From: Pseudomonas allokribbensis | GTDB lineage: Bacteria > Pseudomonadota > Gammaproteobacteria > Pseudomonadales > Pseudomonadaceae | Direction: 5' to 3' | Assembly (NCBI RefSeq): GCF_014863605.1 | Contig: NZ_CP062252.1 | Coordinates: 6,115,501-6,179,500 of the forward strand | Length of the DNA stretch: 64,000 nt | Shown: positions 43,871 through 50,863 of the stretch, in pieces | Layout: every line of letters starts with the position of its first letter | Numbering within the stretch: position 1 is the stretch's first letter | Notes under the pieces: model-generated | Told to the model about the DNA's origin: nothing | The model's input: the letters and a program-made list of their open reading frames with translations, nothing else | Databases searched by the model: none | Made by a program: the position numbers and the translations under genes

Positions 43871-45067
43871 ATGTCCCTGCCTAGCTTGCGCCTCAAAGCC
43901 AACGCCGACCGTCGCCTGCGCGCCGGTCACCTGTGGATCTACAGCAACGAAATCGACGTGGCCGCGACCCCGTTGCACGGCTTCAAGGCCGGCGACCAAG
44001 CGATCCTCGAAGCCGCCGGCGGCAAGCCGCTGGGCATCGTCGCCATGAGCCCGAACAACCTGATCTGCGCCCGCCTGCTGTCGCGCGACATCAAGCTGCC
44101 GCTGGACAAGTCGCTGCTGGTGCACCGCCTGAACGTGGCCCTGTCCCTGCGCGATCGCCTGTTCGACAAGCCGTTCTATCGTCTGGTCTACGGTGATTCC
44201 GACCTGCTGCCGGGTCTGGTCGTCGACCGTTTCGGCGACATCCTCGTGGTGCAGATCGCTTCGGCGACCATGGAAGCCCATAAAGATGACGTGATCGCGG
44301 CGCTGACCCAAGTGCTCAAGCCAAGCGGCATCCTGTTCAAGAACGATTCCGCCGCCCGTGATGCCGAAGGCCTCGAGCGCTACACCGAAACCGTGTTCGG
44401 CCTGGTGCCGGAGTGGGTGGCGCTGGAAGAAAACGGCGTGAAATTCGAAGCCCCGGTGATTCAGGGCCAGAAAACCGGCTGGTTCTACGACCACCGCATG
44501 AACCGCGCGCGCCTGGCCCCTTACGCCAAAGGCAAACGCGTGCTGGACCTCTACAGCTACATTGGTGGCTGGGGTGTGCAGGCTGCCGCATTCGGCGCCA
44601 GCGAAGTGTTCTGCGTCGATGCCTCGGGTTTTGCCCTCGACGGTGTTGAGCGCAACGCCGCGCTGAACGGCTTCGCCGACAAGATGACCTGCATCGAAGG
44701 CGACGTCTTCGAAGCCCTGAAGGAACTCAAGGCCAGCGAAGAGCGCTTCGACGTGATCGTTGCCGACCCGCCTGCGTTCATCAAACGCAAGAAGGACATG
44801 AAAAACGGTGAAGGCGCCTACCGCCGCCTGAACGAGCAAGCCATGCGCCTGCTCAACAAGGACGGCATCCTGTTCAGCGCTTCGTGCTCGATGCACCTGC
44901 CGGAAGACGACCTGCAGAACATCCTGCTGACCAGCGCCCGTCACTTGGACCGCAACATCCAGCTGCTGGAGCGTGGTGGTCAGGGCCCGGATCACCCGGT
45001 GCACCCGGCCATTCCGGAAACTCGCTACATCAAGAGCATCACCTGCCGTCTGCTGCCCAACAGCTAA
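43871..45067 (+). CDS. rlmI: RlmI-like class I rRNA methyltransferase
   Basis: A 398-residue protein with an N-terminal PUA-type RNA-binding domain (RLKANADRRLRAGHLWIYSNEI) and a C-terminal Rossmann methyltransferase: TGWFYDHRMNRARLAPYAKGKRVLDLYSYIGGWGVQAAAFGA for SAM, then IVADPPAFIKRKKDM, and a Cys in SASCSMHL. This architecture is that of RlmI, which makes m5C1962 in 23S rRNA; exact specificity is inferred. ATG 43871 (MSLPSLRLK) follows a GGAGCG site; the frame is open to 43823. A TATACT at 43839-43844 may be its -10 element. Confidence 0.9.
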   Translation: MSLPSLRLKANADRRLRAGHLWIYSNEIDVAATPLHGFKAGDQAILEAAGGKPLGIVAMSPNNLICARLLSRDIKLPLDKSLLVHRLNVALSLRDRLFDKPFYRLVYGDSDLLPGLVVDRFGDILVVQIASATMEAHKDDVIAALTQVLKPSGILFKNDSAARDAEGLERYTETVFGLVPEWVALEENGVKFEAPVIQGQKTGWFYDHRMNRARLAPYAKGKRVLDLYSYIGGWGVQAAAFGASEVFCVDASGFALDGVERNAALNGFADKMTCIEGDVFEALKELKASEERFDVIVADPPAFIKRKKDMKNGEGAYRRLNEQAMRLLNKDGILFSASCSMHLPEDDLQNILLTSARHLDRNIQLLERGGQGPDHPVHPAIPETRYIKSITCRLLPNS

Positions 45068-45081
45068 CGGTATCGATGCAT

Positions 45082-45116
45082 AAAAGAAGGGGAGCCAACA
45101 GGCTCCCCTTCTTTTT
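45082..45116 (+). terminator. Strong intrinsic terminator after the RlmI-like gene
   Basis: AAGAAGGGGAGCC and GGCTCCCCTTCTT pair across AACA, followed by TTT. It isolates the upstream housekeeping gene from the low-GC cluster that begins just after. Confidence 0.93.
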
Positions 45117-45269
45117 GCCTTCCGTTATTGGTTTTCCTACATTTATCGTCCGATCAACATGCAGGACTTTTCCTTACATCCATCATTTACCAATATCTAA
45201 CTTACAAGACCTTTTCAAGCGAAAGACCACTCCGACAAAATTACTGGAATATTCCTACTTAATATCCAC

Positions 45270-45297
45270 TTGCGATTAATCCATTACAAACTATTAT
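45270..45297 (+). promoter_or_regulatory. Candidate sigma70 promoter of the peptide-oxidase cluster
   Basis: TTGCGA (45270-45275) and TATTAT (45292-45297) are separated by 16 bases in a very AT-rich stretch (about 37% GC at 45181-45240), 65 bases before the short ORF. It is the best promoter-like sequence I found in this leader. The region 45121-45269 contains no convincing ORF. Confidence 0.5.
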
Positions 45298-45361
45298 TAA
45301 GTCGTCACCACGAGGTGGCACTCAACAAATAACGAAGCCTCAATGAACAAGGAGTTCAAAC

Positions 45362-45433
45362 ATGAAAGCAATTACTCTGGAATCCCGCAAAATCGCAAAC
45401 CTGGCTTTTCTGGTTGCACCTAAAACCCGATAA
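45362..45433 (+). CDS. 23-residue peptide, candidate precursor or scaffold peptide of the oxidase cluster
   Basis: A short frame starting at ATG 45362, with AAGGAG seven bases upstream. It encodes 23 residues beginning MKAITLESRK, with a hydrophobic middle (ANLAFLV) and a basic end (APKTR), stopping at TAA 45431-45433. It is well placed: downstream of a plausible promoter, 70 bases before a SagB-type peptide dehydrogenase, and separated from it by a hairpin, as is common for precursor peptides of modified natural products. It has no Cys or Tyr; possible modification sites are Thr5, Ser8, Lys10, Asn13 and the C-terminal Lys/Thr/Arg. It resembles PqqA in length only. It could instead be a regulatory leader peptide. 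No homologue is known to me. Confidence 0.6.
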   Translation: MKAITLESRKIANLAFLVAPKTR

Positions 45434-45442
45434 GTAAGGCGG

Positions 45443-45468
45443 CGCTGGGTATTGCCGGCTACCCAGCG
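45443..45468 (+). terminator. Hairpin between the 23-residue ORF and the SagB-type gene (possible attenuator)
   Basis: CGCTGGGTA and TACCCAGCG form a perfect 9-bp stem with an 8-base loop, nine bases after the short ORF's stop. It is followed by TCTTTGATG rather than a true T-run. This suggests partial termination or 3'-end stabilisation, which would leave more of the short ORF's mRNA than of the downstream genes. Confidence 0.6.
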
Positions 45469-45503
45469 TCTTTGATGACCTATCCAGAGAGCCTTGCCTT
45501 AAC

Positions 45504-46577
45504 ATGCAAATAAATCCCTATCTATTCATATTGCCGCGCACGCCAGGACAAATAGTCTGGAACTATAAAGATCACACGCAACATGAACTCGATCTGGACT
45601 ATTCATCTCGCCTGGCACAACTAATCCACAACCCCGAGCTGTACGACAACGACAACATCATAGATACACAATTACTCAATGCCGGAATACTGACAGTATC
45701 GGTAATAAACAACCCCGTCTGGGGCTGGGATGAACTGTCGAAGATTTATCACATCGGCACCCGCAACATTCCCTGCGAATATATTCCGGACAACATTCAT
45801 GAATGGGCCAGACAATACCTGGAACATTGCAACGAAGTGCTCGCCTCCTCGCCCCCGGCCGATGACACGGCTGAGCGCCCCCCAGGCAGACGCATCGCTC
45901 TCCCCGCGCCGTCGACATTGAATGACGACAGTCTGTCGAACGCCTTGACCCGGCGAAAAACCTGCCGGTCCTTCACCGGTTCAGCCGTTCGGCTGAGTGA
46001 TGTCGGCTCCTTGCTGTACCTGACTCTCGGCTATCTGCGCGAGCGCGAAGGCGATTGCGACGACAGCATCGCCGAAGGACTCGACGCCCGCCGCAGCAGC
46101 CCTTCCGGTGGCGGGCTCAATGCCTGCGAAGGTTACCTGCTGATCCAGAACGTCGAAGGACTGGCACCTGGCGTATATGCCTATCACCCGACCGAACACG
46201 CCTTGAGCCTGATCAACCCGTCGCCCGACACAGCGCTGGGCAATCTGCTGGGAGGCCAGCACTTCATCAACAACCTGCCACTGGGCCTGTTCATCACCGC
46301 CCGTTTCGACAGGCTCTGGTGGAAGTATCCCCACTCGCGCGCCTACCGAATGGCGTTCGTCGAGGCCGGGCATCTTTCACAGACGTTTCAACTGGCCGCC
46401 ACCGCGCTAGGCATGAACACCTGGCTGACAGGCGCATTCGCCGACGATCAGGTCGACACATTGCTGCAACTGGAGAACGCTACCGAGCAACCGTTGTTCT
46501 TTGTCGGTTGCGGCGAAAGCGACGGTCAGGCGATGTGCCAGGAAATGCGCGACCTGTTGCGCGAGACGCCAGCATGA
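45504..46577 (+). CDS. SagB/ThcOx-type flavin-dependent peptide dehydrogenase
   Basis: A 357-residue protein. Residues ~1-110 look like the winged-helix-type N-terminal domain of this family (WNYKDHTQHELDLDYSSRLA). Residues ~140-355 form a nitroreductase-fold FMN domain: ALTRRKTCRSFTG, the SPSGGGLNACEGYLLIQNV block, PGVYAYHPTEHAL, AFVEAGHLSQTFQLAATALGMN and the ending FFVGCGESD. Family members oxidise azoline rings in thiazole/oxazole peptides. No YcaO cyclase is present here, so another oxidation is likely. Codons are AT-rich at the 5' end and approach the chromosomal norm downstream. The stop overlaps the start of the next gene (ATGA). Confidence 0.85.
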   Translation: MQINPYLFILPRTPGQIVWNYKDHTQHELDLDYSSRLAQLIHNPELYDNDNIIDTQLLNAGILTVSVINNPVWGWDELSKIYHIGTRNIPCEYIPDNIHEWARQYLEHCNEVLASSPPADDTAERPPGRRIALPAPSTLNDDSLSNALTRRKTCRSFTGSAVRLSDVGSLLYLTLGYLREREGDCDDSIAEGLDARRSSPSGGGLNACEGYLLIQNVEGLAPGVYAYHPTEHALSLINPSPDTALGNLLGGQHFINNLPLGLFITARFDRLWWKYPHSRAYRMAFVEAGHLSQTFQLAATALGMNTWLTGAFADDQVDTLLQLENATEQPLFFVGCGESDGQAMCQEMRDLLRETPA

Positions 46578-47530
46578 GCCTTCTCCCCCTGGCCCCGGCC
46601 TTCGAGTTTTCACTGGGCGACTGGAACACCCGCGCTTCGGTGCGTACCAGCGCCCACGATTACCGCTTGCCGGCTGACATCGCGCAACAACTGGAAACCC
46701 GTCATTGGTTCCCGCCGGCATTTCTGCCCTATCTCGCCCACCCGGCCATCGAAGCGGCGGGCCGTTCGGTAGTGCATCGGCTCACGGCCAGTCATCTGGT
46801 GCATTTTCTCGACTACACCACGTTGCTTGAACACCGCATCGTCAATCGCGCCGTGGAAGTCATCGTCCACGGCGAACTGCCGGTCGATCTTCTGCCATCC
46901 ATGAAAACCGCCGCACTGCAGCTCTACACCGATGAGGGCTACCACGCCCTGTTTTCCCATCAGGTCGCGGAACAGATCGCCGGGTTCTACGCCATCACCG
47001 GGCGCCCGGTGATGCCCAGGCGCATCACGCGGATGGACGGGCTGATCGCCAGAACACCTCAAGAGCAGCGACCGCTGACGTGGTTCCTGCTTGGCTTCGT
47101 CTCGGAAACCATCATTGCCCGGGAACTGCTCGACGTCTGCCGGGACAGCCTGGTGTCCGGGGTCAACGACATGCTGCGCGATCACCTCACGGACGAAGCG
47201 CGCCACAGTCGCTACTTCACTGAAGTGTTCCACTACCTCTGGCTGCACCTGGGCGCGCAACAACGAACCTTCGCCGCCGCCACCCTGCTTGAGATCCTCG
47301 GGATCTTCTTCGAAATCGATGAACCGTGGCTGCGGCAAAGCCTGTACAACGCCGGGATCGCAGACAGCGTCGTGACGGAGATACTCGGCAAGCTGGTAAC
47401 GGTGCAAGCCACCCGATCGCGCGCACGGGCAGGCAGCGTCGCCACGTTGAATGCACTGAAGAAAGCCGGATTTTTCACTGAACCTCAAAACCAGATACTT
47501 TTCGCCAAGGCAGGATTGATCGATGGATAA
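46574..47530 (+). CDS. AurF-like non-heme diiron oxygenase
   Basis: A 318-residue helical protein. All seven iron ligands expected from AurF (as I recall E101, E136, H139, E196, H223, E227, H230) have counterparts with matching spacing: Glu86, Glu121 and His124 (TDEGYH), Glu178 (FVSETIIA), His204, Glu208 and His211 (HLTDEARH). AurF-type enzymes oxidise amines to hydroxylamine, nitroso or nitro groups; others in the family do different oxygenations. The family call is sequence-based; the substrate is unknown. ATG 46574 overlaps the dehydrogenase stop, and the stop overlaps the exporter start, so the enzymes and exporter are translationally coupled. Confidence 0.87.
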   Translation: MSLLPLAPAFEFSLGDWNTRASVRTSAHDYRLPADIAQQLETRHWFPPAFLPYLAHPAIEAAGRSVVHRLTASHLVHFLDYTTLLEHRIVNRAVEVIVHGELPVDLLPSMKTAALQLYTDEGYHALFSHQVAEQIAGFYAITGRPVMPRRITRMDGLIARTPQEQRPLTWFLLGFVSETIIARELLDVCRDSLVSGVNDMLRDHLTDEARHSRYFTEVFHYLWLHLGAQQRTFAAATLLEILGIFFEIDEPWLRQSLYNAGIADSVVTEILGKLVTVQATRSRARAGSVATLNALKKAGFFTEPQNQILFAKAGLIDG

Positions 47531-48755
47531 AGGAAAATCCGGGGTGACGACCCGACAACGTCGCGGGGCCGTCAGCCTGTTGCTGGCGATGGTGTTGCTG
47601 GGTGTATTTCCGCTGGATGTTCTGCTGCCTTCGTTCCCGGCGCTGGCCGAACACTTTCGCAGCACTCCGGCGGACATCGCACTGTCCATCAGCCTGTTCG
47701 CCGTCGGCATCGCCTTCGCCCAGTTGCTGATCGGGCCGTTGTCGGATGTGATCGGTCGCAAGGGGCTGCTGCTCGCCGGCATGAGCGTTTCAATGCTCGG
47801 TGCCCTCGGGTGTGTAATGACCTCGGACTATTCGCTGTTCCTGATATTCCGGGTCGTTCAGGCGCTGGGTTGCGGTTGCTTCGTGCTGTCCCAGGCATTG
47901 GTCCAGGATCTGTTCGAGGGCGAGGAGCGCGATCGCCTGCGAATCCTGATGGTCACCGCCGGCGGGATTTTCATCTCGGTATCGCCGCTGGCAGGCACGT
48001 TCATTCAGGCAACGCTGGGGTGGCGTGGCAGCTTCTGGGTGTTCATCGCATTATCCGCCGTGGTGTTGATCAAGGCCTGGCTGTTTCTGGAGAACACTCG
48101 GCCAACCGTCAGTGGCACACATACAAACTTCCTCACGGCTTACCGACGGGTGCTGGGAGATTTCGACTTCGTCAGCTACTGGCTGATTTCGGCATTTGCG
48201 TTCGCCTGCCACTTTTCATTCATCGTGATCTCGCCGCTGATCTTCATGGACCGGCTGCAATTGTCCGCTTACGAATTTTCCTTGATCCTGCTGATCTACG
48301 GGGCGGCGTACGTCACGGGGGGCATTCTCGCCAGCGTGCTGAGCAGGCGCATCACCAGCGGCCAGCAGATGGTCGTCGGCCTTAGCCTGATTCTGTGCGC
48401 CGGTGTGACCATGCTGTACCTGTCATCGAACTTTGCACTGGCTCCGGCGACGGTGCTGATCCCGATGCTGATCTGCACCGCCGGCACCACCATTGCCCGA
48501 CCGGCCGCCACCTCCCGGGCCATGAGCCTGTTTCCGGACAACGCCGGCACCTCGGCCTCTGCCGGCAGCACGATCATTTTCATCTGCGGCGGTTTGATCA
48601 GTGCCTTGATCAGTCTGAGCCCGACCAACCTGCAATCCACCCTGGGCTACAGCTTTGTCTTGCTCAGTGGTGTGGCGCTCGCCTTGAACAACCGGATCAG
48701 CCGTCGCGCCAGAATCCTGCAAACCGGTGCCATCGCACAGCCGGGCGGCGATTAA
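47523..48755 (+). CDS. Bcr/CflA-type MFS exporter
   Basis: A 410-residue transporter with 12 predicted helices. The first starts at about residue 17 (LLLAMVLLGVFPLDVLLPSFPAL). The MFS loop 2-3 signature is GPLSDVIGRKGLLLAG, and the Bcr/CflA-type helix 4-5 region is FRVVQALGCGCFVLSQALVQDLF. FLENTRPT follows helix 6. Proteins of this group export small drugs and amino-acid-like molecules by proton antiport. It overlaps the diiron oxygenase gene by eight bases, so it probably exports the cluster product and may give self-resistance. Confidence 0.88.
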   Translation: MDKGKSGVTTRQRRGAVSLLLAMVLLGVFPLDVLLPSFPALAEHFRSTPADIALSISLFAVGIAFAQLLIGPLSDVIGRKGLLLAGMSVSMLGALGCVMTSDYSLFLIFRVVQALGCGCFVLSQALVQDLFEGEERDRLRILMVTAGGIFISVSPLAGTFIQATLGWRGSFWVFIALSAVVLIKAWLFLENTRPTVSGTHTNFLTAYRRVLGDFDFVSYWLISAFAFACHFSFIVISPLIFMDRLQLSAYEFSLILLIYGAAYVTGGILASVLSRRITSGQQMVVGLSLILCAGVTMLYLSSNFALAPATVLIPMLICTAGTTIARPAATSRAMSLFPDNAGTSASAGSTIIFICGGLISALISLSPTNLQSTLGYSFVLLSGVALALNNRISRRARILQTGAIAQPGGD

Positions 48756-49021: not shown

Positions 49022-50863
49022 ATGCCAGATTACCGTTCGAAAACATCCACCCACGGCCGCAACATGGCCGGCGCCCGCGCACTGTGGCGCGCCACCGGGA
49101 TGAAAGATGACGACTTCAAGAAGCCGATCATCGCGATTGCCAACTCCTTCACCCAGTTCGTACCGGGCCACGTTCACCTGAAGGACCTGGGCCAACTGGT
49201 TGCCCGTGAAATCGAACGCGCCGGTGGCGTGGCGAAAGAATTCAACACCATCGCCGTGGACGACGGCATCGCCATGGGCCACGACGGCATGCTGTATTCG
49301 CTACCGAGCCGCGAGATTATCGCCGACTCCGTCGAGTACATGGTCAACGCCCACTGCGCCGACGCCATCGTCTGCATCTCGAACTGCGACAAGATCACCC
49401 CGGGCATGCTGATGGCCGCCCTGCGCCTGAACATTCCGGTGATCTTCGTCTCCGGCGGCCCGATGGAAGCCGGCAAGACCAAACTGGCCAGCCACGGTCT
49501 CGACCTCGTCGACGCCATGGTCATCGCCGCCGACTCCAGCGCTTCTGACGAGAAGGTTGCCGAGTACGAGCGCAGCGCCTGCCCGACCTGCGGTTCGTGC
49601 TCCGGCATGTTCACCGCCAACTCGATGAACTGTTTGACCGAAGCCCTGGGCCTCGCACTGCCGGGCAACGGTTCGACCCTGGCCACCCACAGCGACCGCG
49701 AACAGCTGTTCCTGCAGGCCGGCCGCACCATCGTCGAACTGTGCAAACGCTACTACGGCGAGAACGACGAGTCGGTACTGCCGCGCAACATCGCCAACTT
49801 CAAGGCGTTTGAGAACGCGATGATGCTCGACATCGCCATGGGCGGCTCGACCAACACCATCCTGCACCTGCTGGCCGCTGCCCAGGAAGCCGAGATCGCG
49901 TTCGACCTGCGCGACATCGATCGCCTGTCGCGCGTAGTGCCACAACTGTGCAAAGTCGCGCCGAACATCCAGAAGTACCACATGGAAGACGTGCACCGCG
50001 CCGGCGGCATCTTCAGCATCCTCGGTTCGCTGGCCCGTGGCGGCCTGCTGCACACCGACCTGCCGACCGTGCACAGCCGCAGCATGGAAGAAGCCATCGC
50101 CAAGTGGGACATTACCCAGACCGACGATGAAGCCGTACACCACTTCTTCAAGGCCGGCCCGGCAGGCATTCCGACGCAAACAGCGTTCAGCCAGTCGACC
50201 CGTTGGGAAACCCTGGACGACGACCGCGAAAACGGCTGCATCCGCAGCTTCGAGCACGCCTATTCGAAAGAAGGCGGCCTGGCCGTGCTGTACGGCAACA
50301 TCGCCCTGGACGGCTGCGTGGTGAAAACCGCCGGCGTCGATGAATCGATCCACGTCTTCGAAGGCAACGCGAAGATCTTCGAAAGCCAGGACAGCGCCGT
50401 GCGCGGCATCCTCGCCGACGAAGTAAAGGAAGGCGACATCGTCATCATTCGCTACGAAGGCCCGAAAGGCGGCCCGGGCATGCAGGAAATGCTCTACCCG
50501 ACGTCGTACCTGAAATCCAAAGGCCTGGGCAAAGCCTGCGCCCTGCTGACCGATGGCCGTTTCTCCGGCGGCACCTCCGGCCTGTCCATCGGCCACGCTT
50601 CGCCAGAAGCTGCAGCCGGCGGCGCGATCGGTCTGGTGCAGGACGGTGACAAGGTGCTGATCGACATTCCGAACCGCTCGATCAACCTGTTGATCAGCGA
50701 CGAAGAACTGGCGGCACGCCGGGTCGAGCAGGACAAGAAGGGCTGGAAACCGGTGGAAATACGTCCACGCAAAGTGACCACCGCCCTCAAGGCCTACGCC
50801 CTGCTGGCGACCAGCGCCGACAAGGGTGCGGTGCGTAACAAGGCGATGCTCGACGGGCTGTGA
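49022..50863 (+). CDS. ilvD: Dihydroxy-acid dehydratase
   Basis: A 613-residue Fe-S dehydratase of valine, leucine and isoleucine synthesis. Cluster ligands are in [10 protein letters not shown] and [19 protein letters not shown]. Other landmarks: [35 protein letters not shown] and [19 protein letters not shown] 49022 ([12 protein letters not shown]) gives the family length; the frame is open to 48998. About 266 bases precede it, with a TAGAAT at 48834-48839 that could be a -10 element; I found no clear leader peptide or riboswitch there. Confidence 0.97.

Follow-up and report, generated by a model that had tools for sequence, protein, structure and literature searches.

A conserved 23-residue peptide gene beside SagB-type and AurF-like enzymes in Pseudomonas, and a possible minimal pathway of peptide modification

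Nitroreductases at clusters for ribosomally synthesized and post-translationally modified peptides (RiPPs) that have no YcaO are described, in the accessible part of PMC12636437 (2025), as rare and functionally uncharacterised, and that paper characterises one of them. As reported there, the nitroreductase domain of PflD converts a Phe of a Pseudomonas RiPP precursor to Z-dehydrophenylalanine in a cluster without YcaO; the desaturated residue, Phe7 of PflA, adjoins Asp8, which is hydroxylated by the fused MNIO domain of PflD, and no protease is reported near the pfl genes. Here we consider a locus that may follow a similar logic with different parts. It lies in a 64,000-nucleotide stretch of a 6.57 Mb Pseudomonas chromosome (NZ_CP062252.1, positions 6,115,501 to 6,179,500; hereafter the window), where an open reading frame (ORF) of 23 codons, a gene for a SagB-type dehydrogenase, a gene for an AurF-like diiron oxygenase and a gene for an exporter of the major facilitator superfamily (MFS) follow one another between two flanking genes. 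Sequence comparison shows that the ORF is a coding gene, conserved and linked with this family of SagB proteins; loci with the AurF-like gene retain Asn13 in its product, and a clade without that gene has lost this residue. We put at roughly 0.7 the probability that the locus is a minimal RiPP pathway, in which the enzymes chemically modify the 23-residue peptide.

How does the locus compare with the systems already described? With pfl/pos (PflD; PMC12636437, PMC7726476, each as far as its accessible text goes) it shares a YcaO-free nitroreductase at a Pseudomonas RiPP locus; like pfl, it shows no protease nearby and has a proposed oxygenation that adjoins a desaturated residue. It differs in that PflD is fused to an MNIO domain, is partnered by a HEXXH enzyme and has a longer precursor (85 residues in Os17), whereas the window has a stand-alone SagB-type enzyme, an AurF-like diiron enzyme and a precursor of 23 residues. 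By analogy, the best reading would be a RiPP variant in which the PflD-like, YcaO-free logic is combined with another oxygenase, an ultra-short precursor and an exporter of the small-molecule type. A first-pass annotation of the window had taken as its premise that SagB-type enzymes normally need a YcaO. That premise is weaker than claimed, as PMC12636437, in its accessible part, describes a nitroreductase domain that acts without a YcaO on a RiPP precursor of Pseudomonas; the accompanying statement, that this locus has no YcaO, agrees with what we see, for none of the three enzyme-sized genes that lie between the flanking genes encodes one, a result that covers the locus and not the remainder of the genome.

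The enzyme also resembles those of thiazole/oxazole-modified microcins and linear azol(in)e peptides (SagB, McbC, ThcOx) in being a SagB-type flavin mononucleotide (FMN) dehydrogenase with a Lys-Tyr pair. Unlike those systems, however, the window locus shows no YcaO or cyclodehydratase gene, and no Cys, Ser or Thr is conserved at the core positions tabulated, and for these reasons azole formation was rejected as the function of the enzyme. A further likeness is to the pathway of pyrroloquinoline quinone (PQQ), in which PqqA is a very short ribosomal precursor that is converted to a small product. A very short precursor, and possibly a small product, are common to both, but the enzymes are different, the window peptide has no Glu-Tyr pair, and no radical S-adenosylmethionine enzyme is seen at the locus. 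A literature search gave no paper with both 'SagB' and 'AurF', and none with this gene set, most subscription journals lying outside its coverage; the accessible parts of PMC12710340, PMC13060819 and PMC13108848 do not describe the gene set either. Within that coverage, the first-pass annotation was right that no described pathway has these genes.

A conserved peptide gene ahead of the SagB-type gene

Is an ORF of 23 codons a gene at all? The loci compared were 119 fetched from a sample of 398 Pseudomonas genomes and 80 named GTDB loci (80 of 160, all titled Pseudomonas), the two sets overlapping. The short ORF was defined as one that starts with ATG, has 18-36 codons, encodes Glu7 and Asn13, and ends 30-130 bases before the SagB-type gene. 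When the 300 bases ahead of each related SagB gene were collected, 142 of the 158 distinct stretches had such an ORF. It turned up in 3 of 7900 mononucleotide shuffles and, within the window, at 0 of 2529 control positions, so that chance is excluded as its origin. Fourteen of the 16 stretches without the ORF come from loci that lack the AurF gene. In the remaining two, L052 and L055, it is the SagB-type gene that is damaged; the peptide was not found in L052, and in L055 it is altered, with Gln7 and no ribosome binding site.

The ORF also behaves as coding sequence. Among 69 peptides of 23 residues from class I, the loci with the AurF-like gene, the ratio of nonsynonymous to synonymous change (pN/pS) is 0.40, and Glu7, Ala12 and Asn13 have no replacements, Ala12 being written with four codons and Asn13 with both Asn codons. 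The prediction that a short ORF, conserved and under coding constraint, precedes the enzymes thus passed the test set for it beforehand. In one respect the first-pass annotation was mistaken: it had expected a conserved C-terminus, and the fixed residues (E7, A12, N13, L14) belong instead to the N-terminal half and middle of the peptide, with a tail after Asn13 that varies from 8 to 13 residues (87 class I rows). The precursor matches no Pfam or NCBIfam family, and annotation pipelines may therefore miss it. A conserved precursor gene beside modifying enzymes, which is one of the marks of a RiPP, is what was found.

Asn13, residue 14 and the two enzymes

On what do the enzymes act? Loci without the diiron enzyme provide a natural comparison. 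A SagB of this family is found in 114 of the 398 sampled genomes (E 1e-50 or better), and the diiron enzyme in 104 of the 398 (1e-40 or better, counted from the matches listed). Both are carried by 102 of the 114 SagB genomes; a comparison of the two genome scans leaves 12 without an AurF match at 1e-40. Seven of these 12, together with P. nabeulensis (L176), make up class II, in which the SagB and MFS genes are kept at the rlmI-ilvD site, and a genome-wide search of the seven gave no AurF match better than 2e-11. The class II peptides, which include MNAIILESKALAAFALIGMPK, MKTVILESKELAAFSLIGMPK, MKKVQLEKNLAVHHHAMLSTPK and MEKIKLEQAVSAGHHALLGTSK, have Leu6 and Glu7 in 8 of 8 cases and Asn13 in 0 of 8; four have Ala at residue 13, three have Gly and one has His. 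In class I, Asn13 is present in all 137 distinct SagB rows, a count that includes L107, whose contig ends ahead of the expected AurF start; eight loci whose SagB is shorter than 300 residues or has no usable start are left out of the residue counts and of the tree.

A quick SagB tree was built from 98 of the 148 distinct rows, one for each group at 88% identity, with all 12 rows without a local AurF gene retained, and was rooted on the more distant SagBs. Class II forms a single clade of eight rows inside class I (support 98 in the Shimodaira-Hasegawa-like approximate likelihood ratio test, SH-aLRT), the fork that nests it there has a support of 90, and there is one change of state on the tree, which points to one event and not many. 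After the loss of AurF, residue 13 drifted to three different residues; it is invariant in all class I rows sampled. Because the absence of the diiron enzyme is accompanied by the loss of Asn13, the peptide is very probably the substrate of the enzymes. A role for it as substrate or scaffold had been proposed from the window alone, and its role as substrate gains from the finding that the conserved ORF goes with both enzymes.

The diiron enzyme is probably an active oxygenase, since its ligand positions are invariant and aligned and its model matches CmlI and AurF. PF11583 is found at 72.4 bits (gathering cut-off 29.6). Residues E86, E121, H124, E178, H204, E208 and H211 do not vary among 17 diverse sequences, and in alignments with AurF and CmlI they fall at positions that we take to be the ligands of AurF; the structural model, with a mean predicted local distance difference test score (pLDDT) of 88.4, has CmlI and AurF as its best matches. 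Like these arylamine N-oxygenases, then, the window enzyme has their fold, as predicted, and seven diiron ligands. Unlike them it would have a ribosomal peptide as its substrate, and its identity to them in the structural match is 19-25%; the 4-aminobenzoate N-oxygenase model NF045603 scores 61.6 bits, below its cut-off of 620.

The SagB-type enzyme matches PF00881 and, at 128.4 bits, TIGR03605 (cut-off 78.4). A Pfam scan finds in it the PF00881 domain only, with no MNIO-nitroreductase fusion, and K274-Y275 aligns with the WKY of the azoline oxidase ThcOx. Residue 14 of the peptide is Leu in 131, Trp in 3, Met in 2 and Phe in 1 of the 137 class I rows, and Phe in 5 and His in 3 of the 8 class II rows. 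The side chain varies, and a beta-methylene is always present; residue 16 may be Gly or Ala, and residues 17 and 11 may be beta-branched. Such constancy at residue 14 is what a C-alpha/C-beta desaturase needs, and we infer that SagB desaturates the peptide near residue 14, most likely at residue 14 itself. The order SagB, AurF, MFS is retained in loci only 33-43% identical to the window.

One can imagine the pathway as follows. Residues 1-7 (MKxIxLE) would be the short stretch by which the peptide is recognised, and the part of SagB that binds them may be its N-terminal domain; a moderately confident model predicts three strands and two helices for residues 1-60 of SagB. Using FMN and the Lys-Tyr pair common to ThcOx, SagB would desaturate C-alpha to C-beta of a core residue, most likely residue 14, and the diiron enzyme would oxygenate the adjacent Asn13 at the carboxamide nitrogen or the beta carbon. 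A general cell protease would trim the product and the MFS protein would export it, and hairpins flanking the peptide ORF may favour the peptide message over the enzyme message. If the peptide is indeed modified, the pathway would give a natural product of ribosomal origin and of a new kind, and many Pseudomonas species carry the genes for it. The precursor is short enough for full synthesis, and the natural enzyme-loss comparison predicts which residue is modified. A ribosomal peptide is a candidate substrate for the diiron enzyme; should the enzyme act on one, it would be, to our knowledge, the first of the AurF fold to do so.

Points against the pathway, and other explanations

Several observations weigh against a minimal RiPP pathway. 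No product is known, and no protease gene is seen at the locus. The link between AurF and Asn13 depends on a single loss event, and the entire core differs in class II, including residue 11 and residue 14 (Leu replaced by Phe or His), so that Asn13 is the best, and not the only, candidate for the target of the diiron enzyme. Four loci (L046, L048, L074 and L076) have shortened AurF frames and yet retain Asn13. The peptide ORF is present at all eight loci with a short or startless SagB, L103 among them, and seven of these eight peptides have Asn13 and Glu7 (in L035 the motif lies one residue on). Intact peptides beside damaged enzymes fit recent damage, yet they count against a strict rule. The recognition domain is a further weak point, for the SagB model has a mean pLDDT of 77.6, which is moderate confidence only, and profiles of 98 SagB rows and 13 PqqD fragments, compared for a homology of the SagB N-terminus to PqqD, gave no alignment. 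The fold-search list for SagB is filled by the nitroreductase domain and says nothing on this point.

Might the peptide serve as a scaffold for the assembly of a small molecule, a role that the first-pass annotation had allowed for and that is known from the products of peptide-aminoacyl-tRNA ligases and from PQQ, rather than as the precursor of a peptide product? We think this unlikely, although it deserves to be taken seriously. The precursor has only 23 residues, no peptide exporter of the ATP-binding cassette type is seen at the locus, and the MFS exporter is of the small-molecule type (PF07690; Bcr/CflA model TIGR00710 at 189.7 bits, just below the cut-off of 200.9). But no amino-acid-adding ligase is seen at the locus, the rest of the genome not having been searched for one, and peptide-aminoacyl-tRNA ligases add at the C-terminus, which here varies in length and in sequence.

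A second possibility, to which we give a rather small chance, is that the short ORF is a regulatory leader, at which ribosome stalling toggles the hairpin before SagB, the enzymes themselves using a free metabolite. In size the peptide resembles the leaders of efflux and amino-acid operons, and at 94 of 98 loci a hairpin comes after the ORF. Arrest peptides, however, are fixed relative to their end. The conserved residues here keep a fixed distance from the start codon and not from the stop, and start-spaced residues with a variable tail make a stalling leader unlikely. Moreover, the window peptide shows no run of one control codon, the core of the peptide changes in the AurF-less clade, and ORFs of greater length (33 or 55-56 codons) with a similar N-terminal motif occur at some related SagB loci. 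That SagB and the diiron enzyme use an unrelated free metabolite, the peptide being a separate small protein such as an immunity or membrane peptide, seems very improbable: AurF and CmlI do act on free or carrier-bound arylamines, and peptides are intact at most loci whose SagB looks broken, but the peptide core and the presence of AurF change together, and among the loci with a damaged SagB, L055 has an altered peptide and L052 has none that could be found.

Gene layout, hairpins and related loci

The features of the locus are collected in Table 1. The gene set given by the first-pass annotation, a short ORF with a ribosome binding site, a hairpin and three overlapping genes, is present at the positions it had assigned, and the family scans confirm the families. 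The AurF-like gene overlaps the SagB-type gene by 4 bases and the MFS gene overlaps the AurF-like gene by 8. The AT-rich start claimed for the block is seen as well, with a GC content of 41-47% over about 45050-45800 and of about 60% around it. The ORF list, as read, has no additional enzyme gene between the housekeeping genes at the flanks, overlying ORFs in other frames not having been searched. By tblastn, the flanking genes that we presume to be RlmI-like and IlvD-like, names given without a family search, are found at 69 and 68, respectively, of the 80 named loci.

Table 1. Features of the locus, numbered by position in the window
Feature	Position	Strand	Basis or detail
Sigma-70-like promoter TTGCGA-16-TATTAT	45270..45297	+	9/12 consensus matches
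Hairpin GTCACC-ACGA-GGTGGC	45304..45319	+	just behind -10 element
Ribosome binding site AAGGAG	45349..45354	+	7 bases upstream of ATG
Putative precursor peptide, 23 residues, MKAITLESRKIANLAFLVAPKTR	45362..45433	+	ORF list, conservation, constraint, shuffle test
Hairpin between peptide and SagB genes, possible attenuator	45441..45470	+	stem counts across loci
SagB-type FMN dehydrogenase, 357 aa, invariant Lys274-Tyr275	45504..46577	+	PF00881, TIGR03605
AurF-like diiron oxygenase, 318 aa	46574..47530	+	PF11583; seven invariant ligand positions
MFS exporter near Bcr/CflA, 410 aa	47523..48755	+	PF07690
RlmI-like rRNA methyltransferase (presumed), left border	43871..45067	+	ORF list
IlvD-like dehydratase (presumed), right border	49022..50863	+	ORF list

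The promoter is weak evidence, because two such sites occur on both strands against 0.7 expected in shuffles. Its place close behind the -10 element probably puts the first hairpin near the start of the mRNA; of 98 loci, 87 have a stem of at least 6 pairs here, with 49 distinct 5' arms and a median z of -2.0. The palindrome at 45304-45319 may serve as a stabiliser of the mRNA 5' end or as an operator. For the second hairpin the corresponding figures are 94 of 98 loci, 77 distinct 5' arms and a median z of -2.6. The z values compare energies with those of 60 mononucleotide shuffles per stretch, and the stem counts are without a shuffled control. In both hairpins the letters vary among loci and the pairing is maintained; a terminator scan found no site at the window copy of the second.

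To look for spread outside Pseudomonas, 369 genomes were sampled from the taxonomic class; besides the window's own, 5 of them match SagB at E 1e-30 or better, and these matches cover the nitroreductase domain only. A plasmid search ('near' mode) gave no match. At one and the same rlmI-ilvD site, some species have the class I version of the cluster and others the class II version (L176 and L181-L187).

The more distant SagBs of the sample have no AurF, and their neighbourhoods are varied. In L189, L192 and L193 the SagB gene follows an ORF of 33 codons that starts M[KR]K[IA]x[LM]Q; the encoded 33 residues are precursor-like, with the pattern M[KR]K..[LM]Q...LSN[ND]AY..L[IV]T. L189 and L192 adjoin a methyltransferase gene with tetratricopeptide repeats (TPR), L192 has a carbamoyltransferase gene as well, and L193 has an unscanned neighbour of similar size. 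The SagBs of L188, L190 and L191 adjoin a carbamoyltransferase-like gene, with an MFS gene also in L188 and L190 (of these, only the L190 proteins were put to Pfam). L188 and L191 have an ORF of 55-56 codons before SagB whose product starts MNRVIIE or MKRVTIE (M[NK]RV[IT]IE); for L190 none was listed. These starts resemble the window's MKxIxLE, which suggests that a single recognition segment is combined with interchangeable cores and tailoring enzymes. Tentatively, one might go further and suppose a modular RiPP family, a reading that we hold possible without thinking it probable. Its constant parts would be SagB, as a desaturase that stands alone, and the ultra-short segment MKxIxLE for recognition; the tailoring enzyme would be swapped, the options being an AurF-like diiron oxygenase acting on a peptide Asn, none, a TPR-methyltransferase or a carbamoyltransferase; and the diiron branch would yield a small, dipeptide-like product with an N-oxidised Asn13 and a dehydro residue 14.

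The window's own genome has a second locus of interest (L002, C1:1483200-1486784), which encodes a PflD-like fusion of MNIO and nitroreductase domains, of 649 residues. An identity of the window locus with the OS3 cluster of Os17 (PMC7726476) was considered and rejected, since OS3, judged from its published description, matches this paralogue by size (650 residues), by its neighbours and by the accessible part of PMC12636437. Over 202 residues the paralogue is 37% identical to the SagB of the window, and the WKY motif is common to both. The genome thus carries, with no YcaO in view, two distinct SagB-type systems.

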